From an uncultured Oscillospiraceae bacterium (GTDB lineage Bacteria; Bacillota; Clostridia; Oscillospirales; Oscillospiraceae): DNA of 64,000 nt. The position numbers were made by a program, and so were the translations under genes. The stretch spans positions 1 through 64,000 of the forward strand of contig CANQVO010000010.1 in assembly GCA_947627325.1 (NCBI GenBank), in the 5' to 3' direction. Positions 2,726 to 16,211 of this stretch are shown here, piece by piece. How positions within the stretch are numbered: position 1 is the first letter of the stretch; each line of letters opens with the position of its first letter. The notes below the pieces were generated by a model, which saw only the letters and a program-made list of their open reading frames with translations, did not search any database and was not told the DNA's origin.

Positions 2726-4450
2726 ATGGGAAACAAAGCGGCATGGCTGCACCGATGGCTGGCGCTGCTGTTGACGACCGCCCTGCTCCTGCTCCTGGGC
2801 GGGAGCGCCGCCCGGCGGCCGGAGGCCCAGGCGGCGGAGGATGAGGAGTGGGTACAGCGGTGGGAGACCCGCTGGTGCCACGCCTGCGGCCGGGAGAGCC
2901 TGTTTTGGGTGATGTATCTGCCCCTGGACGGGGAGTTCCACCAGGTGCAGACCATGTGCCTGGCCCCCGACTGCGGCGCCATCAACGGCGATCTGCCGGA
3001 GGAGGACGAGGGGCACTGGAACAACGTGTTCCGCCCCGAGCCCCACGCCCTTTCCGCCCAGGTCGTCCAGCCCACCTGTACCCAGGGGGGCTACACCGTC
3101 TACACCTGCGAGGGGTGCGGATACCGCCGCCAGGGGGACGAGACCCCCGCCGCCGGACACCGCTTTGGGCCCTGGGTGACCCAGGTGGAGCCCACGGCGG
3201 AGCGGGAGGGCGTCCAACAGCGGACCTGCGAGGTCTGCGGCGCCACGGAAACAACACCCCTGCCCCGGCCCACGCCGGAGCCAACACCCGAACCGACGCC
3301 AGAACCTACGCCGGAGCCGACACCTGAACCGACACCCGAGCCGACGCCGGAGCCAACGCCGGAGCCCACGCCCGAGCCGACGCCCGAACCGACGCCCGAG
3401 CCCACGCCGGAGCCCACGCCGGAGCCCACGCCCGAACCCACGCCCGAACCCACGCCCGAACCCACGCCGGAGCCCACGCCTGAACCCACGCCCGAGCCCA
3501 CGCCAGAACCAACGCCGGAGCCGACACCTGAACCGACACCCGAGCCGACGCCGGAGCCGACGCCGGAGCCGACGCCGGAGCCCACGCCCGAACCCACGCC
3601 GGAGCCGACACCTGAACCCACGCCGGAACCTACACCCGAGCCGACGCCCGAACCTACGCCGGAGCCGACGCCCGAGCCGACACCAGAGCCGACACCAGAG
3701 CCGACACCTGAGCCCACGCCCAAGCCTACGCCGGAGCCGACGCCCGAGCCCACGCCCGAGCCGACACCTGAACCGACGCCCGAACCGACGCCAGAACCGA
3801 CGCCGACGCCAACGCACACGCACAGGCCGAGGCCGGGGGGCGGCGCGGCCGGGGCGGGGTGTGTGGGGCCCTATATCCGGGGGACCCCGGCGGGGACCTT
3901 TGAGCCGGAGCGGGCCCTGACCCGGGCGGAGACGGCGGCGATGCTGGCCCGCCTGCTGGCCCAGGCCCGGCGGGAGCCGATCCGGGGGCCGGGCGGCGCG
4001 TTTGCCGACGTACCGGCGGACGCGTGGTACGCGGGCGCGGTGGAGTACCTGGCGGAGCGGGGGGTGACCCGGGGACGGGAGGGCGGCGTGTTCGACCCGG
4101 AGGCGGCCATCACCCACCGGGAGTTCGCCGTGCTGGCGGCGCGGTTCTACCTCGCCGCGGGCGGGCAACGCTCCCGGGAGCCCCCAGCCGCGCCGGAAGG
4201 CGACTGGGCGGCCCAGGCCCTCCAGGCGGCGGCGGAGATGAGCTGGCATCCGGGGGACGAGGGGATCGGGCTCTGCCCCGACTGCCCCGTGACCCGGGCG
4301 GAGGGCGTGGTCATCCTCAACCGCGTGCTGGGGCGAACGCCGGACCGAAGCGCCCAGGGCAGTCGCCCGCAAAGCGCCTTTTCCGATGTGGGCCCGGACC
4401 ACTGGGCCTGGTACGACATTCTGGAGGCGGCCGGCGTCCGCGGTCCTTAA
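2726..4450 (+). CDS. SLH surface protein with Cys-rich head and (PTPE)n stalk
   Basis: A 574-residue secreted protein. A signal peptide ([10 protein letters not shown] core, residues 1-34) is followed by a Cys-rich head containing WCHACG, a CLAPDC pair, [10 protein letters not shown] and RTCEVCG. This is the CxxC pattern of small zinc ribbons common in clostridial surface proteins. About 180 residues of PTPE repeat follow, then a basic [11 protein letters not shown] linker and up to three SLH motifs: [39 protein letters not shown], and a final [15 protein letters not shown]. The SLH part would anchor the protein to secondary wall polymer, with the PTPE stretch acting as an extended wall-spanning stalk. 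ATG 2726 follows GGAGGGAGACCC. The ligand of the head domain is unknown. Confidence 0.85.
3269..3810 (+). repeat. 12-bp coding tandem repeat (PTPE), about 45 units
   Basis: A degenerate 12-mer encoding Pro-Thr-Pro-Glu is repeated about 45 times. Almost all variation is at third codon positions, apart from one Lys variant (PTPK) near 3720 and a PTPTPT end. The synonymous scrambling suggests the repeat is old rather than a fresh slippage product. Confidence 0.95.
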
Positions 4451-4594: not shown

Positions 4595-4624
4595 TTGACA
4601 GGCCGGGGGCGGCGGGCCTATAAT
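4595..4624 (+). promoter_or_regulatory. Promoter of the cobalamin-riboswitch transcript
   Basis: TTGACA at 4595-4600 and TATAAT at 4619-4624 with an 18-bp GC-rich spacer, ending about 14 bp before the riboswitch P1 stem. Upstream, 4451-4594 holds only a GC-rich hairpin without a T-run and no gene. Confidence 0.88.
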
Positions 4625-4637
4625 GAAAGTCCAAACA

Positions 4638-4837
4638 GCATGGTGACCGCGCCTCTGTCCCCCGGCAGAGGCGGGGATGAGGGAATCCGGTGGGAACCCG
4701 GAGCAATACCCGTTGCCGTATGCATGGGAGGACGCCGTTCATGGCGCGAGCCGGTCATTGGGAGCGATCCTGAGAAGGCGGAGCGGCGGCCGCGGGGCCA
4801 GGGCCCCAAACTGTGCGAGCCGGAAGACCTATCATGC
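4638..4837 (+). promoter_or_regulatory. Cobalamin (B12) riboswitch
   Basis: The conserved elements occur in order: GAGGGAATCCGGTG (from 4679), CCCGGAGCAATACCCG, a CATTGGGA core, TGAGAAGGC, and the B12 box AGCCGGAAGACCT (4818-4830). P1 closes between GCATGGTGA (4638-4646) and TATCATGC (4830-4837). A strong terminator lies 50 nt downstream, so the switch should act at transcription: cobalamin-bound RNA favours termination and low cobalamin gives expression. The controlled gene is the SLH/DUF4430 protein at 4984. Confidence 0.93.
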
Positions 4838-4885
4838 TCACAGGGGCCCGGATCAGCGCGCCCAGGCGCACGTCGCGGAAAAGTC

Positions 4886-4924
4886 GGCCGCGGCAGACCT
4901 TTTGTGGTCTGCCGCGGCCTTTTT
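4886..4924 (+). terminator. Terminator (expression platform of the riboswitch)
   Basis: A perfect 14-bp stem, GGCCGCGGCAGACC (4886-4899) with GGTCTGCCGCGGCC (4906-4919), followed by five T residues. It lies between the riboswitch and the start codon, so it must be avoided for the gene to be expressed. Confidence 0.92.
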
Positions 4925-4983
4925 CATCGGGCGCGTCCGGCCAAATTCTCCCATTACGGGACCATGATGAAGGAGGAGTTTTT

Positions 4984-7900
4984 ATGCGAAAGACAAGCAC
5001 ACGGATCCTGGGCCTGGCCCTGGCCCTGGCGGTACTGCTGGGGCTTCTGCCAGGGGTCGCCGCGGCGGCGGGGGGCGCGCTGGAGGGGCTGGGGACGGAG
5101 GAGAGCCCCTACCTCATCGCCGACGCGTCCGACCTGGCGGCGTTCCGGGACCTGGTGAACGCCACCGCCTCCAGCGCCGCCTGGGCCAAGCTGACCGAGG
5201 ACATTGAACTCTCCGGGGCGTGGACCCCCATCTCCAATAGCAACTATGTGACCGAGGCCTACGCCGGGACCTTTGACGGGGACGGCCACACCATCTCCGG
5301 GCTGTCTGTCAGCAGTACCAAGACTAGCCAGGCGCTGGGGCTGTTCGGCGTGGTGAACGGCGCCACCATCCGCAACCTGAAGGTGGAGGGGACCGTCACC
5401 TCCAATGGCAACTATAACGGCGGCATCGTGGGCAAAAGCCAGGGGGCGGTCACCGTCCAAAACTGCTCCTTCGCCGGGCAGGTCAGCGGGAACTACGCCG
5501 GAGGGATCGTGGGCCGGATCAACGCCGGGTCGGTGAACATCGACCGCTGCGCCAACCTGGCCGATATCACCGGCACCTACGCCGCCGGGATCCTGGGCTA
5601 CGGCTCGGCCCCGGGCAGTCAGATCTCCAACTGCTACAACACCGGCACGATCACCGGCTCCACCCGCGCCGGCGGCATCGCCGGACAGGCCCACAACAAC
5701 ACCGCCATCTCCAACTGCTACAATGTGGGCCCGCTGGCGGGGACCGCCTCCACCAAGGGCGGCGTATGCGCCTTCAACAACCAGTCGGTCACCAACTGCT
5801 TCTACTTAGACGGCGACGTGGAGGCCCCCGGCGGCAGTACCCCCAGCGCCGAGGGCGCCATCTCCAAAATCGAGAGCCCCGAGGCGCTTCTGAAAAAGCT
5901 GGGGGACGCCTTCGCGGCGGACGAAAACCACGTCAACGACGGCTGGCCCATCCTCGCCTGGCAGGCGGGGGCGGCCCCGGCCCCCAAGGACCCCCATCTT
6001 GAGGTCACCGGCCCCGCCGCCCTCTACATGGTGAACAGCGGGGCCCAGCCCACCGCCACGCTGACGGCCCGGTGGGTGGACATGGAGGCGGCGCCGGTGA
6101 CCTGGTCGCTGCTCCGCGGTCAGGACGTGGTGTCGTTGACCTACCCGGAGGGCGCGGGGGCCAATCACGAGAGCGTCATCCTCCAGGCCCAGGCCCCCGG
6201 CTATGCCACCGTCCAGGCGGAGGTCGGCGACTACACCGCTCAGGCGGAGATCGCCGTCTACCCCTACGTCACCACGGCGGAAATCGCCGGGACGGTGGCC
6301 GCGGGCCGAACGGTCCGGGCCCAGGTGAACATCCTGGGCGGCGGGGAGTACGACTACGACGCCTTCCCGGCGCTCCAATTCCAGTGGCGGGTGCTGTCCG
6401 GGGAGGACTATTCCAGCGGCAACACCGCCAATTACCAGGACATCCCCGGCGCCACCGGCCAGACCTACGCCATCCCGGCGGAGCTGGCGGGGGACTACCT
6501 CTCCTTCCGGGCCAGCTACGGCGGCGAGAGCGTGACCCCCAACCGCACCTACCTCGTCGCCACCGCCGCCCGGGGGGCCCTGATGGACGACAGCGCCGCC
6601 CTGGACCTGCCCGATGAGCTCCGGGAGGCCACCGTTTTGACCCTGCCCTCGGTGGGAGAACAGGGCTCGGCCATCTCTTGGGAAAGCGACCGCCCCGACC
6701 TCATCGACCCCACCACCGGGGCGGTCACCCTGCCCCAGCCGGGGGAGGATGACGCGACCGTCACCCTCACCGCCACCCTGACCTTGGACGGCGAGGAGAC
6801 CACCCGCACCTTCTCCCTCCTGCTCCACGCCCGCCCCCGTGGGCCCCAGGACGACCTGGCCGACGCGGCGGCGGCCCTGGGGGCGTGGTACAAGTTATGC
6901 CCCGTCTACGGCGCGGATGACAACGTGACCACCATGCTGGCCCATGATCTGGCCGACCAGGGGTTTGAGGGGATCGGCGTGGCGGTCAAGGCGGTGGAGG
7001 AGGTCTACGGCGGGGCGGCCATCGCCCCGGACGGCGGCCTCACCTACTTCTACGCCGACCCCAACACCACCCCCGCCGTCCCCATGGGCAGCTTCCAGGT
7101 CACCTTCACCCTGTCCAAGGGCGGCGCCAGCCTGGACTACGGCCCGGTGAGCGTCCTCGTGCCCTGGGACGTGGAGCGGGTCAAGGAGACCATGCGGGCG
7201 GAGATTTTGGACAAGGTGGCGCTGGCCGACGGCCCCGTCACCGCCGACCTCTCCCTGCCCCGGGTGGTGGACGGCAAGCGGTGGACGCTGATCGCCTGGA
7301 CCTCCTCCGACCTGGCCGCCATCTCCGTCAGCGACCGGGACCAGTCCACCGCCGACACCCTCTTTGACCCCTACGTGGGCGTGGTGACCCCGGGGGAGGC
7401 GGACAAGGTGGTGACCCTCACCGCCGCCTTCACCTTCCAGCTCACCGGCGACGTGACCGGCCGGGAGGAGCCCATCGTCCTCTACAAGGTCTTCCCCGTC
7501 ACCGTCCCGGCCCTGGAGAAGATCCAGGCGGACCGCGTCCGGCAGGAGCTCCTGGACAAGCTGGACCGGGGCTTTGCCGCCAAGGGGTTGACCGACGCGG
7601 TGACCGGGGAGCGGCTGGAGCCGGATGAGGACGGGGTCTACACCGTCTCCCACGACGTGCAACTCCCCACCACCGGGGACTTCGGCGTGGACGGCAAAGA
7701 CTACCCCATCACCATCACCAGCGACAACGAGGCCGTGGCCCAGGCCCCCGGCGTCCGCAACGCCGCCCGGGTGACCGTCCTCCGCCCCGGCGTGGGGCGG
7801 CCCGACGGCCTCGCCACCGTCACCGTCACCCTGGCCGACCGAGACACCGCCCTCACCGCCTCCCGCTCCTTCACCCTCCGGGTCCCCGCCCTGACCCAAG

Positions 7901-9489
7901 CGGAGGTAGACGGGGAGCTGGCCCTGATGGCGCGGGTCCGGGCGGCCTACTTCGACGGCATCCGGGGGGAGAACGCCGCCCGGGACGACGTGCGGACCGA
8001 CCTGGCCCCCTTCCTGGAGGTCTATGAGGACGAGAGCGGCGCGCTGGTGTGGGTCCGGGACAGCCGGGAGCAGACGGGCCGGGGCATCGTCCCCACGCCC
8101 ATAGAGGGCTGGGAGGATCTGGAGCTGTGGCGGCTCTTTAAGTCCAGCAACCCCAACGTGGTCAGCCACGAGACCCTGCGGGTCACCCGCCAGGACCAGG
8201 CCAAGGCGGTGACCGTCACCAGCTATCTCTCCAGCGAGACCCTGGGCCGCTACGGGGAACTCTATCAGCGCGACCCCGACACCTACGCCCAGTACGCCGA
8301 CCTCGCCGGGCTCTACTACCAGGAGGTCACCACCGATGCCGCCGTCCCGGCGGAGGCGGCCCGCGCCGCCGCCCTCTCCCCGGCCGGGACCATGGTGGTC
8401 CGGGGCCTCAGCGACCCCGACAGCGCCATCCCCGTGACGGAGACCCTGAACGTCTCCTTCGTCCTCACCGGCCTGGACGGCCAGGTGTGGATCCCCGCCA
8501 CCACCTACACCGGTCTGGACGAGGCCTCCACCATCTATGACCTGTTCACCCGCGCCCTGACCGACCACGGCTGCACCGCCGTGCGGGAGCGGGGCACCTA
8601 CATCGTGTCCGTCTCCGGCGCGCCGGGCGTTCTCGCCGAGAAGCAGTACGGCCCCCGCTCGGGCTGGATGTACCGGGTCAACGGCGCGATCCCCCAGGTC
8701 TACATGGGCGCCTGCCCACTCCACGACGGCGACAAGGTCCAGGTGTTCTACACCCGGGACGCCAGCGTGGACGACCCCGACTGGACCTGGCCCACCGACG
8801 ACCCCGCGGACGAGCCTGGGGATGACCCAAGCGACGACCCTACGGACGACCCCGCCGACGTTCCATCCACGCCCGGCCAAAGCCACTCCTCCGGCTCCGC
8901 CCACCGCCGGGACGAGGCGGCGGGCTCCCAGGACGAGGCCCAGGAGGCCCAGCCCGGGCAGGGAGAAACGCCCGCCGCGAAGGTCTTTGCCGATGTGGCG
9001 GCGGGCAGCTGGTATGAGGGCGGCGTGTCCTTCGTGGTGGAGTGCGGCCTGTTCCAGGGGGTGGCCGAGGGCCGCTTCGCCCCGGAAATCCCCATGACCC
9101 GGGCCATGCTCATGACCGTGCTGGCCCGGCTGGACGGCCAGGACACCGCCTCCGGCGGGACCTGGTATCAGCCCGGCGTGGACTGGGCGGTGGCCGCCGG
9201 CGTCTCCGACGGCGCCGCGCCGGACGCCCTCATCACCCGGGAGCAGCTGGCCGTCATGCTCTACCGTTACGCCCAGCGCCTGGGCCTGCCCACCGCCGGC
9301 CAGGACAGCCTGCGGAGCTTTGCCGACGGCGGCCAGATCGCCCCCTGGGCCCAGGACGCTATGGCCTGGGCGGTGGACCAGGGCATTCTCAACGGCCGCT
9401 CCGGCGGCGTTCTGGACCCCGCCGCCTCCGCCACCCGCGCCGAGGCCGCAGCCATGCTCCAGCGCTTCGCCGCCCTCCTGCCGGGATAA
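4984..9489 (+). CDS. B12-riboswitch-controlled SLH surface protein with transcobalamin-like (DUF4430) domain
   Basis: A 1501-residue secreted protein. Order: signal peptide (residues 1-29, cleavage near GVAAAAGG); GLUG-type repeats at roughly 90-260 (GTFDGDGHTISGL, NYNGGIVGKSQG, NYAGGIVGRI); bacterial Ig-like modules, including atrophied-Ig types such as ISWESDRPDLIDPTTGAV; a DUF4430 domain at about 1156-1260 (STIYDLF, SGWMYRVNGAIP, LHDGDKVQVFYTRD); an Asp/Pro linker; then three C-terminal SLH motifs (FADVAAGSWYEGG, TWYQPGVDWAVAAG, FADGGQIAPWAQDAM). DUF4430 resembles the C-terminal beta domain of transcobalamin and intrinsic factor. Together with the riboswitch this suggests a wall-anchored corrinoid-capture protein; that role is inferred. 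ATG 4984 follows AAGGAGGAG. The gene is monocistronic, flanked by terminators. Confidence 0.85.
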   Translation: MRKTSTRILGLALALAVLLGLLPGVAAAAGGALEGLGTEESPYLIADASDLAAFRDLVNATASSAAWAKLTEDIELSGAWTPISNSNYVTEAYAGTFDGDGHTISGLSVSSTKTSQALGLFGVVNGATIRNLKVEGTVTSNGNYNGGIVGKSQGAVTVQNCSFAGQVSGNYAGGIVGRINAGSVNIDRCANLADITGTYAAGILGYGSAPGSQISNCYNTGTITGSTRAGGIAGQAHNNTAISNCYNVGPLAGTASTKGGVCAFNNQSVTNCFYLDGDVEAPGGSTPSAEGAISKIESPEALLKKLGDAFAADENHVNDGWPILAWQAGAAPAPKDPHLEVTGPAALYMVNSGAQPTATLTARWVDMEAAPVTWSLLRGQDVVSLTYPEGAGANHESVILQAQAPGYATVQAEVGDYTAQAEIAVYPYVTTAEIAGTVAAGRTVRAQVNILGGGEYDYDAFPALQFQWRVLSGEDYSSGNTANYQDIPGATGQTYAIPAELAGDYLSFRASYGGESVTPNRTYLVATAARGALMDDSAALDLPDELREATVLTLPSVGEQGSAISWESDRPDLIDPTTGAVTLPQPGEDDATVTLTATLTLDGEETTRTFSLLLHARPRGPQDDLADAAAALGAWYKLCPVYGADDNVTTMLAHDLADQGFEGIGVAVKAVEEVYGGAAIAPDGGLTYFYADPNTTPAVPMGSFQVTFTLSKGGASLDYGPVSVLVPWDVERVKETMRAEILDKVALADGPVTADLSLPRVVDGKRWTLIAWTSSDLAAISVSDRDQSTADTLFDPYVGVVTPGEADKVVTLTAAFTFQLTGDVTGREEPIVLYKVFPVTVPALEKIQADRVRQELLDKLDRGFAAKGLTDAVTGERLEPDEDGVYTVSHDVQLPTTGDFGVDGKDYPITITSDNEAVAQAPGVRNAARVTVLRPGVGRPDGLATVTVTLADRDTALTASRSFTLRVPALTQAEVDGELALMARVRAAYFDGIRGENAARDDVRTDLAPFLEVYEDESGALVWVRDSREQTGRGIVPTPIEGWEDLELWRLFKSSNPNVVSHETLRVTRQDQAKAVTVTSYLSSETLGRYGELYQRDPDTYAQYADLAGLYYQEVTTDAAVPAEAARAAALSPAGTMVVRGLSDPDSAIPVTETLNVSFVLTGLDGQVWIPATTYTGLDEASTIYDLFTRALTDHGCTAVRERGTYIVSVSGAPGVLAEKQYGPRSGWMYRVNGAIPQVYMGACPLHDGDKVQVFYTRDASVDDPDWTWPTDDPADEPGDDPSDDPTDDPADVPSTPGQSHSSGSAHRRDEAAGSQDEAQEAQPGQGETPAAKVFADVAAGSWYEGGVSFVVECGLFQGVAEGRFAPEIPMTRAMLMTVLARLDGQDTASGGTWYQPGVDWAVAAGVSDGAAPDALITREQLAVMLYRYAQRLGLPTAGQDSLRSFADGGQIAPWAQDAMAWAVDQGILNGRSGGVLDPAASATRAEAAAMLQRFAALLPG

Positions 9490-9522: not shown

Positions 9523-9558
9523 GGCCCAGCCCGGCGGGGTGCCGGGCTGGGCCCTTTT
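9523..9558 (+). terminator. Terminator of the SLH/DUF4430 gene
   Basis: GGCCCAGCCCGGC (9523-9535) pairs with GCCGGGCTGGGCC (9541-9553), followed by CTTTT. It ends the riboswitch-controlled unit 34 bp after the stop codon. Confidence 0.9.
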
Positions 9559-9626
9559 CATCGAGGCCGCCTATGGGACGAGTGGGAAGCCCTTCTTTTT
9601 CAATGTCCGTTTTTTATGGGGCGAGA

Positions 9627-10148
9627 CTGGACCCCGCGGCGGTTCGGAAAAAGCTGTCCGTCGTTTTGGAGCGGGCGGGCTGTAAACACGTCCGTTTCCA
9701 CGACCTCCGCCACACCTTCGCCACCAACGCCCTGGAACACGGCATGGACGTAAAAACCCTGTCCGCCATCATCGGCCACGTCTCCAGCGGCACCACGCTG
9801 AACGTCTACGCCCACGTCACCGATGAAATGCGCCGGACGGCGGCGGCAAAAATCGACCGGGCCATCGCGAAGGCGGAACCGCGGCCGGAGTCGCCCGCCC
9901 CCAAAAAGCGCATACAAACCACCTTCCAAGCGGTCAAGGGCAAATACCGCAAGCCCGGCACCGGCTATGTAAAGCAGATCAGCCCCAACTGCTGGCAGGG
10001 CCGTTATTCCCCCAAGGTCAAGGGCAAACGCCTCTCCCGCAATGTCTACGCCCCGACCGAAGCCGCGTGCGAGGCCAAGCTGACGGAGCTCATCGGGCAG
10101 ATGAAAGCTGAAATTTCCGCTGTCAGCGCCCAGGATCACGCAAGCTGA
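9627..10148 (+). pseudogene. Tyrosine recombinase remnant (C-terminal third)
   Basis: From LDPAAVRKKL to the stop, this matches the last ~174 residues of the intact integrase at 23002-24420, with only a few substitutions (AAAKIDR/AAKKIDR, ESP/ETP, KRIQ/KRTQ, KLTEL/KLAEL). It keeps the second catalytic box (FHDLRHTFATNA, IIGH, VYAH with the presumed Tyr) and the C-terminal DNA-binding-like extension. It lacks the N-terminal arm domain, the core-binding domain and the first catalytic Arg box. The reading frame is open but joins unrelated sequence at 9626, so it is a deletion remnant and not a functional integrase. It probably came from an earlier related element at the same tRNA-Val site. Confidence 0.92.
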
Positions 10149-10274
10149 GCGGATCGTGGGATCCATAGAAGTGAGGTAAGGGTTGAGATGTTTGATGGGC
10201 AAAGAGTTTTTCCCGTCTGTGGCATGATGTGTGGTCAGCTAAAAATTTGTGACGGCCAAATTCGTTGAAAAGTT

Positions 10275-13401: not shown

Positions 13402-14403
13402 TTATATTCTATCTCCATAGGGTAAAGATTTAATGTAGCTTTCCATGAAGCTATAGTCAATAGAGCCATCGCTTTTTATTGGCAACTTAATGACCATATC
13501 GTTTAAGTGAGCACAACAGTTATATCCATAACTAAATTTAAAAGATTGCTGATTAATTACGGTGACAATAAATAATAACGACGCTGTAGATACATCTTTA
13601 TCTTTACATTCTAAGCCTTTAGCTCTTGTTCCAATATAAAAATCTTTGGGCTGAACAAACGCTTTGAAAGCCCCTCTATCAGCTATACTTATAGAACAAG
13701 TGTGATCAAATAATTTTCTATTGGGTATAAACGATGAATAAAAAGCTATATTGTTATTACTACTGCTATTGCTGGCGATAGGATAATCTCCATCATCAAT
13801 TTCAGAGAGGATAAGGTCGCCGCCCGTATATATATTAAACAGGTCGCTTATTTTGCACTCTTTCCATTTAGCAACACTAAGCGTACGCCATCCGCACCCC
13901 ACCCGATTAGCAGTTGTCAATGGCTTGTAGTTGAGGGATTTAATATATTCCTCCATTAAATCCCAATCCGGAGTACCCGCTGGAGTTTGGGGTAATTTTA
14001 TTGTCGTGTCTTTGAGATGTGTTTTCCATTTACGCCCAAAAGAGTATTTTATCCGTTCCTGAGATAAGATTGTTGCTAAAAATAAGCCAACATACTTATT
14101 CATGTGATTTCTATTGTAGCATAACATTAGATTCACTGTGCCTAGGAAATCTGATTCCATGTAGTTAGCAAAGCCCACTGACCCTTGGCCATCACAAATG
14201 AGAACCACACAGTTTCCCCGGCTTACTAATTCCGAATTGTATGCGCACCAAGCCATTACGCCATTGTTGTCCTTTTTTGCCCCAACATAAGGAATATCAT
14301 GCCCTTCTTCTAACTGATATGCCTGAGAGACTTTCCCGGCTTCTATTTCAGAAAAAACGGCAGATAACGGAAATACTCCCCATTCATTTATATTGAGAGT
14401 CAT
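13402..14403 (-). CDS. Restriction-modification specificity (S) subunit, BcgI-B-like
   Basis: A 333-residue protein with two target-recognition halves. The first opens with WGVFPLSAVFSEIEAGKVSQAY and has IPYVGAKKDNNGVMAW; the second opens with WKECKISDLFNIYTGGDLILSE and has YPIASNSSSNNN. Each half ends in a similar helix (MEEYIKSLNY, MESYIKSLPY), the duplicated TRD-helix plan of type I S subunits and BcgI B. The length matches BcgI B (about 340 residues). Its ATG overlaps the TGA of the upstream endonuclease-methyltransferase gene (ATGA at 14400-14403), so the two are translationally coupled. It would select the bipartite DNA target for both methylation and cleavage. Confidence 0.87.
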   Translation of the reverse strand: MTLNINEWGVFPLSAVFSEIEAGKVSQAYQLEEGHDIPYVGAKKDNNGVMAWCAYNSELVSRGNCVVLICDGQGSVGFANYMESDFLGTVNLMLCYNRNHMNKYVGLFLATILSQERIKYSFGRKWKTHLKDTTIKLPQTPAGTPDWDLMEEYIKSLNYKPLTTANRVGCGWRTLSVAKWKECKISDLFNIYTGGDLILSEIDDGDYPIASNSSSNNNIAFYSSFIPNRKLFDHTCSISIADRGAFKAFVQPKDFYIGTRAKGLECKDKDVSTASLLFIVTVINQQSFKFSYGYNCCAHLNDMVIKLPIKSDGSIDYSFMESYIKSLPYGDRI

Positions 14404-16211
14404 AGCATTTTCCCTTCCTTAATGAGGTAAGCAAGATAATCATTTATCGTTTGTTGAAAATCCTGCTCCGTCAATTTGGTATAATCGGTTTTCATATAGG
14501 CTTCACATAGCCATTCATCATCGCCATCGACCTTATGTGTGGCTGAAAGGCCATCCACAGCACGGCGATTTCTATATAATTCGATCCATTCCTTTTCAAT
14601 TTCAACCCAACGGCTCTTTCCGGTAATTGAGTCAACTTGTTCAACGCGACCAAGGTTCTTTTTCTTTTTGAAACCGTCATCACGAGAATAGCAGAAAAAG
14701 GTATCAGGATTTGAAACATCGCTATGTTTTGTCCCAATTTTGAACACCATGCAACAAGCGGAAGCACTGGCGCCAGGATGGAAAATATCAATTGGCAGTG
14801 TAAAAACGGCATCAAGTGTATTTTCTTCAAGAATTTCTCTTTTCAGTCGGGCGATTTCTCCGCTGGTACCGATAGCACAGGCAACCGGAAGCAACACGGC
14901 CAGTTTTGCCTGATGATTAATAGAATTAAGCGTGTCTGCGATAAATTTTACGAAGTACAATCCTTTTGATGGGTCTTCTTTCTTGTCCTTTGCCCAGGTT
15001 TTTACATATTCCGGTGCAAGGTGAATGCGCTGACCGTTATAAGGGGGATTCATTAAAATTACATTTGGCTTTGCTTCTTTGATCCAGTCTGCCAGCGCAA
15101 AGCAACTACCTTGACGAATGTTTGAATTACCATCAGAGTGAATGAGCATATTTGTTGTTGCAAGCCCATACACATTTTCGTCGAACTCAATACCAAAAAT
15201 CTGATGCTTCTTCACTTCTTCCTGCTCGGCGGCAGTTGCACAGTCATCCAAAGCCTGTGTCATTGCTCTTACGAGGAATGAGCCGCTTCCACAGCAGGGA
15301 TCAAGTACGACAGAATGCTTATTTACGCCTGTAATCTTTGCCATAAAATCCGTGATATGGTCGGGCGTAAAAGCCTGGTTTTTATCCGATTTTCCAACAT
15401 ATTTATTGAAGGTAACAAAGAAAAGGTTCAGTAAATCCTGCCCAGACGTGCTTTTATCGTTGATGAAAGGTAAAATGTTATCTTCAATAAACTTGAGTAT
15501 TTCTCTGAAAGCGGCAATGGTAAGCTGTCTGACATACTGGTTTCCAAGAACATTTCTGTTAAGCAGTGCCAGCTTTTCCGCTTTGTTTATATCTGAATTG
15601 AGCAGGTCTTCCAGGACCTCTTTGATTCGAGTCCTTATTTGCGCGGCAGTCAATGAGGGCGTGGAATAATCAAGACCGTTCTTCAGGGCAAGCAGACAGG
15701 TTCCAACAAACTGGCTGCGAAGTTTTTCAGGGATGCTATGGCGATGTAGCATTTCATTAAGTTTATAGGTGTTCTGCATCACCTTTTCTTTGTCGTTGAT
15801 CTTTGACGTATAGAAATCAACATACTCATCCATTGAGCGCAGGGCCGTTTCCGTAGGCATCAAATCGTTTTCAGAAATAACACCACGCCACACTCTTACA
15901 TTGTTGTTTGTGGTATTTGCAAGAATGGCTACGATTTTATTGCCCGTAAGCGCCTTCTCGTATTCGACGTAAGCAGAGAGTTGTTCTTCGTCCGCTTTTG
16001 TAAAGCTTTGCTTTGTTTCTATCAGCACTGAAATATTGTCTTTAACAAAACGAATATCCAGCTTCTCAAATTTCCGTCCAGTACTATTCTGAATAGGAGA
16101 AAAAGTCAAAGATGCGTCAGCATATGCTTTCGGATAACTGTACTCGTCGTTCTCAATGTTGCTGGTTAAATACGCCCTGCCAACAGTAGCGATTATATCT
16201 GCTCTAATCAT
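14400..16211 (-). CDS. Fused endonuclease-N6-adenine methyltransferase, BcgI-A-like (type IIB/IIG)
   Basis: A 603-residue protein. The N-terminus holds a PD-(D/E)xK-like nuclease pattern: Asp52 in KLDIRF, then LIETK with Glu65 and Lys67. A helical region follows, then a gamma-class adenine methyltransferase with motif I DPCCGSGSF (near residue 302) and motif IV NPPY (near 388). Nuclease and methylase in one chain with a separate 333-residue S subunit is the BcgI arrangement; BcgI-type enzymes methylate, or cut on both sides of, a bipartite site. No separate HsdR is present, which argues against an ordinary type I system. Its own AT-rich promoter lies upstream. Site specificity and cleavage activity are not predictable from sequence. 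Confidence 0.87.
   Translation of the reverse strand: MIRADIIATVGRAYLTSNIENDEYSYPKAYADASLTFSPIQNSTGRKFEKLDIRFVKDNISVLIETKQSFTKADEEQLSAYVEYEKALTGNKIVAILANTTNNNVRVWRGVISENDLMPTETALRSMDEYVDFYTSKINDKEKVMQNTYKLNEMLHRHSIPEKLRSQFVGTCLLALKNGLDYSTPSLTAAQIRTRIKEVLEDLLNSDINKAEKLALLNRNVLGNQYVRQLTIAAFREILKFIEDNILPFINDKSTSGQDLLNLFFVTFNKYVGKSDKNQAFTPDHITDFMAKITGVNKHSVVLDPCCGSGSFLVRAMTQALDDCATAAEQEEVKKHQIFGIEFDENVYGLATTNMLIHSDGNSNIRQGSCFALADWIKEAKPNVILMNPPYNGQRIHLAPEYVKTWAKDKKEDPSKGLYFVKFIADTLNSINHQAKLAVLLPVACAIGTSGEIARLKREILEENTLDAVFTLPIDIFHPGASASACCMVFKIGTKHSDVSNPDTFFCYSRDDGFKKKKNLGRVEQVDSITGKSRWVEIEKEWIELYRNRRAVDGLSATHKVDGDDEWLCEAYMKTDYTKLTEQDFQQTINDYLAYLIKEGKML

Follow-up and report, generated by a model that had tools for sequence, protein, structure and literature searches.

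To our knowledge, it is largely open how Gram-positive gut bacteria seize vitamin B12 outside the membrane; capture proteins are known from Bacteroides. For Gram-positive bacteria, B12 scavenging by surface proteins with SLBB domains, together with CbiO/CbiQ-like partners and toroid fusions, was predicted in 2007, and the defining insert of the transcobalamin-like clade of these domains is a hairpin that follows the helix of the beta-grasp fold (Burroughs et al., PMC1796856). Further described systems that invite comparison are the animal carriers transcobalamin (TC), intrinsic factor (IF) and haptocorrin (HC), the BtuG/BtuB proteins of Bacteroides (PMC6143338), and the ECF-CbrT transporter of Lactobacillus delbrueckii (PMC5997447). 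The locus described here lies in a stretch of 64,000 nucleotides from an uncultured Oscillospiraceae bacterium, which was analysed as a whole and is called the window. It comprises a cobalamin riboswitch and a single gene for a secreted, SLH-anchored protein with a transcobalamin-type beta domain.

The initial annotation had placed a complete cobalamin riboswitch, a terminator, and the gene for a secreted SLH protein of 1501 amino acids at positions 4595-9489, and all these elements hold. A sigma-70-type promoter (TTGACA-N18-TATAAT, 4595..4624, + strand like all following features of the unit) has a consensus match of 12/12, the average of shuffled sequences being 0.0. The adjoining aptamer (4624..4850) matches RF00174 over the full length of the model (positions 1-189 of 189) with 57.8 bits and an E value of 9.9e-12, above the gathering score of 31.5 bits. 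The covariance model R1, which was built without the window sequence, independently scores it with 44.5 bits. No RF00174 match was found elsewhere in the 2.3 Mb genome, which is rated 100% complete. The intrinsic terminator of the leader (4886..4924, hairpin 4886-4919) has a 14-bp stem, a T-run, a folding energy of -37.8 kcal/mol and a z value of -8. A cobalamin riboswitch should have an expression platform, and the terminator ahead of the gene, which is conserved in an ortholog, fulfils this criterion. In this GC-rich leader, no mutually exclusive antiterminator pairing between the aptamer and the arms of the terminator stood out against shuffled sequences. A ribosome-binding site (AAGGAGGAG, 4970..4978) precedes the ATG start codon at 4984, and the open reading frame ends at 9489. 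Because a further inverted repeat with a T-run (9523..9558, perfect over 13 bp, terminator-like by sequence reading) lies behind the stop codon, the transcription unit looks monocistronic.

Cobalamin riboswitches are known as a class to switch expression off. By analogy, it is inferred that the riboswitch lowers expression when cobalamin is plentiful, and the protein is predicted to be made only under vitamin B12 scarcity; the OFF direction and B12-dependent control are untested.

The surroundings of the unit have features of their own. Just upstream of the riboswitch, a secreted protein of 589 amino acids with SLH-like C-terminal repeats is encoded, and a 12-bp tandem repeat with about 45 copies (3264-3805) specifies its (PTPE)n region. 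An integrase-like fragment lies directly downstream of the SLH-DUF4430 gene (9600-10150), and positions 13402-16211 contain type I restriction-modification-like genes (methylase, specificity subunits). The fragment and these genes suggest that the downstream region is mobile or variable.

By sequence reading, the protein begins with a putative signal peptide region (residues 1-29, 4984..5070), which has a positively charged start, a hydrophobic core and an AAA cleavage-like site. A GLUG-type repeat region (about residues 40-335, 5101..5988) is indicated by a weak Pfam Glug match and by tblastn matches to GLUG proteins; a plasmid search by tblastn also returned mostly GLUG matches and was uninformative. 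Pfam calls two stretches of the aBig_2 Ig-like domain (PF20578), one at residues 550-614 (6631..6825) and the other elsewhere in the protein. The DUF4430 domain (PF14478) covers about residues 1154-1260 (8443..8760), of which Pfam itself reports 1199-1257 with 35.4 bits, and it retains the invariant family motif E..SGW.Y..NG. Residues 1334-1498 (8983..9477) form the predicted wall anchor. Here the SLH triplet that had been annotated is readable by eye, and Pfam finds three repeats in the full-length ortholog, but in the protein itself it calls only two stretches (PF00395, 65.6 bits versus a cut-off of 20.8). The signal peptide and the SLH domains meet the criterion of a secreted or surface location for the transcobalamin-like SLBB clade. 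A BtuG-type lipoprotein would require a lipobox cysteine after the signal peptide, and there is none. NCBIfam has no named family for the protein, and relatives of its DUF4430 domain were not found on viral contigs.

The proposal that the domain near residues 1156-1260 resembles the transcobalamin beta domain was borne out by structural comparison. An AlphaFold2 model of residues 1140-1272, calculated with 49 relatives, reached a pLDDT of 90.2 and a pTM of 0.81. It is a beta-grasp in which the helix (45-55) is followed by two strands (59-63 and 67-73), and in the model the hairpin-after-helix criterion of the transcobalamin-like clade is met. In a VIA-align comparison with the PDB, the 14 top matches were all HC, IF or TC, with Z values of 11.5-13.4 (HC 13.4, with 1.7 A over 97 residues; IF 12.2; TC 11.5-12.2). 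They were followed by the bacterial structure 3u7z with a Z of 11.0 and by ubiquitin-like proteins with 8.5 and below, and the Foldseek ranking agrees. Sequence identity to the three carriers is only 10-18%, and the best PDB match of the family profile by sequence is transcobalamin-2 with a non-significant E value of 0.32. The TC/IF family proper combines an N-terminal alpha/alpha toroid with the beta domain, a criterion that the protein does not meet; a hidden alpha-toroid inside it was considered and rejected, as the toroid profile gave no match. By its modelled fold, the protein belongs to the transcobalamin-like SLBB clade; without a toroid, it is not a transcobalamin proper.

The initial annotation had surmised that a B12 transporter might be encoded elsewhere, and an ECF importer is indeed present on another contig of the same genome (C14), with an ECF S match of 294 bits, EcfT, and an EcfA-A'-S fusion. 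A short element upstream of this operon (G000:C14 18137-18221, - strand, equal to L217:13138-13222) is conserved within the genus and resembles short elements before the DUF4430 genes of relatives. The covariance model R3, built from relatives only and blind to this element, finds it with 54.7 bits (E 2.8e-15) as the only strong match in the genome. The Rfam cobalamin families do not match it at E values up to 1, and a like element in L080 is matched by RF01482 below threshold (19.9 bits). Compact elements with a core of about 80 nt were also observed in L218, L073, L080, L083, L100, L105, L152, L155, L172 and L190. They occur in many family members upstream of ECF or DUF4430 genes, are below all Rfam cut-offs and distantly resemble RF01482. 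As far as sequence alone can tell, these cobalamin-type riboswitches are possibly an undescribed compact class.

The genome encodes B12-dependent MetH next to MetF, and family searches found neither CobS nor a permease of the FecCD/BtuC type; for lack of the latter, a BtuFCD route was rejected. Because MetH is present and both CobS and the permease are absent, the bacterium, judged by its gene content, most likely depends on ready-made corrinoids that are taken up via the ECF route. The specificity of the S component for corrinoids is inferred from homology and context. A second DUF4430 gene lies between ruvA and ruvB and encodes a lipoprotein of 157 amino acids (G000:C1, L004:11243-11716, - strand). 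As a partner it was rejected, since no riboswitch is present in the 20 kb around it.

The best explanation, to which we assign a probability of about 0.74, is that the SLH-DUF4430 protein is the wall-anchored capture part of a corrinoid (B12) scavenging regulon and feeds the separate ECF importer; corrinoid binding, ligand identity, the direction of regulation and the hand-off are inferred. At low intracellular cobalamin, the riboswitch would allow transcription through the terminator, as deduced from the OFF behavior of its class. The protein would be secreted and then held on the wall via its SLH repeats, and its beta-grasp domain would bind corrinoids and enrich them close to the membrane. 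There they would be imported by the ECF importer, which has its compact cobalamin-type riboswitch, to supply the B12-dependent methionine synthase. The cooperation of the two is inferred from the shared riboswitch class only, and they are encoded on different contigs. The earlier reading as a surface device for corrinoid capture is supported, with the qualification that of the transcobalamin architecture just the beta half is present, that the genome offers no toroid partner, and that binding and B12-dependent expression remain inferences.

It is chiefly doubtful whether a beta domain can bind strongly enough in the absence of a toroid. A family search of the genome with the toroid profile gave no match, and because the alpha-toroid that completes the transcobalamin binding site is missing, the affinity for corrinoids may be low; the pocket residues were not compared to those of TC. 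The isolated beta domain of human TC binds cyanocobalamin and cobinamide, and the assembly of the alpha and beta domains is cobalamin-dependent (PMC5599065). Therefore, binding by a beta domain alone is possible in principle. The chief rival explanation, which we consider unlikely, is that the domain is degenerate or repurposed and without a toroid does not bind corrinoids, in which case the protein would be an adhesin or an S-layer scaffold of GLUG and Ig-like repeats with an inherited riboswitch. The lack of a toroid in protein and genome, the many other SLH proteins of the genome, and the large variable repeat regions are in agreement with this. However, the invariant motif is retained, the fold is predicted with confidence, the genome most likely relies on external corrinoids, and an ortholog from a different genus (L104), with 50% protein identity over 1583 columns, shows strong conservation of the riboswitch leader. 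In the leader of this ortholog, RF00174 scores 58.6 bits, and the aptamer and the terminator arms are conserved, in contrast to the diverged terminator loop and flanks. Such conservation at this protein identity suggests that the leader is under continued selection.

It seems rather improbable that the domain binds a different ligand that is useful under B12 shortage, e.g., cobalt, a methionine-related compound or a host glycan. A point against corrinoids is that the beta-grasp fold binds other ligands, too; SLBB domains serve many soluble ligands (PMC1796856), and 3u7z was deposited as a putative metal-binding protein. However, the nearest structures are, by a clear margin, the three cobalamin carriers, the absence of CobS argues against a need of cobalt for B12 synthesis, and in relatives, the same domain, an alpha-toroid and an ECF importer are found together under the control of cobalamin riboswitches. 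The statement that the gene is not a classical B12 transport gene is correct locally, but in these relatives such genes often head B12-type ECF operons, which encode a secreted SLH alpha/alpha-toroid protein, a membrane-anchored DUF4430 protein, EcfT (CbiQ family), and a fused EcfA-A'-S. Cobalamin riboswitches often precede the toroid operon, which is present in Oscillospiraceae, Paenibacillus, Pelotomaculum and others. Several relatives have a surface protein that contains both the toroid and the beta domain, and for a model of one such fused unit (pLDDT 85) the 15 best Foldseek matches are TC, IF and HC. For the same model, VIA-align ranks terpene cyclases above IF, because the toroid alone is a common fold that also matches terpene cyclases. 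One-chain proteins of this type are encoded at L207:4473-9896, L183:3800-9847, L160:3-4139 and L178:118-3483, and some of them carry two toroid-plus-beta units, an intrinsic-factor-like architecture in bacteria. A relative of the same genus encodes a secreted protein of 325 amino acids between the riboswitch and the large gene (L068:13156-14133, - strand); its C-terminal motif, DGWVFRVND, is DUF4430-like and was missed by Pfam.

The question whether homologues in related genomes are also preceded by B12 riboswitches was answered positively with 40 loci of large DUF4430 ORFs, which were taken from family genomes blind to riboswitches and searched with R1. A cobalamin riboswitch was found upstream (same strand, at most 1.6 kb) of 29 of them, and for 5 of the 11 remaining ORFs, less than 600 bp of upstream sequence is available. 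By chance, about 0.07 such cases would be expected, a figure that presumes roughly two riboswitches per 2.2 Mb genome and is only a guide, as related genomes are not independent. That the riboswitch owes its position to chance or remained from a B12 gene since lost, and that the SLH protein behind it is unrelated to B12, can be dismissed as extremely improbable: the gene stands alone without transporter neighbors and is followed by an integrase-like fragment, but this recurrence and the same leader in an ortholog of another genus already contradict it.

A wider scheme can be put forward only tentatively, with the odds slightly against it. Oscillospiraceae and other Bacillota would possess a riboswitch-controlled, extracellular split-intrinsic-factor system, in which toroid and beta-grasp domains, carried by separate wall- and membrane-anchored proteins, enclose a corrinoid and pass it on to a dedicated ECF importer. 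The genome studied here would have a reduced version, with a lone wall-bound beta domain sufficing and a separate compact cobalamin riboswitch, as yet unclassified, controlling the importer. The locus is a concrete candidate, and in families to which Flavonifractor and Intestinimonas belong, proteins structurally akin to the two halves of the animal B12 carriers are encoded under B12 riboswitches. The findings suggest that in some Gram-positive bacteria a surface protein related to human intrinsic factor serves to catch B12. A direct contest for the vitamin between microbes and the intrinsic factor of the host is suggested as well. If corrinoid binding proves true, this would link the 2007 proposal that animal transcobalamin was acquired from Gram-positive bacteria to regulated bacterial B12 uptake. 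No literature linking DUF4430 or SLBB domains to cobalamin riboswitches was found, in a search that mostly did not cover subscription journals and preprints. Within this incomplete coverage, three things are new: the recurrence of cobalamin riboswitches as control elements, the compact riboswitch, and a single-gene form that is wall-anchored, has only the beta domain and lies apart from its importer.

Compared to described cobalamin riboswitches (RF00174, RF01482), the element is a full RF00174 match and belongs to the same class; the difference is that the controlled gene encodes a wall-anchored surface protein. The likely partner is of the same type as ECF-CbrT of L. delbrueckii (PMC5997447), with an S component, EcfT and two ATPase domains, but it has a fused EcfA-A'-S, its specificity is inferred, and in relatives it is tied to extracellular toroid and beta-domain proteins. 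With BtuG/BtuB of Bacteroides (PMC6143338) the protein shares riboswitch regulation, surface location, and the proposed capture of corrinoids for an importer. The suggested counterpart relationship therefore stands as a functional analogy, but no homology was found: the protein has an SLH wall anchor, a beta-grasp and no lipobox, and the importer is of the Gram-positive ECF type instead of TonB-dependent. The animal carriers share the beta fold, and relatives of the protein add the alpha/alpha toroid, in some cases within a single chain; in contrast, the protein itself is bacterial, wall-anchored, and without a toroid in protein or genome. A further likeness is to the transcobalamin-like SLBB clade (PMC1796856), with the same beta-grasp and post-helix hairpin, a secreted surface protein, Ig-like domains, and, as in relatives here, neighboring CbiO/CbiQ-like genes and toroid domains. 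To our reading, that publication does not mention cobalamin riboswitch control. In contrast to the described clade members, the protein is SLH-anchored, consists of the beta half only, is encoded in a single-gene unit away from the importer, and is controlled by a cobalamin riboswitch.
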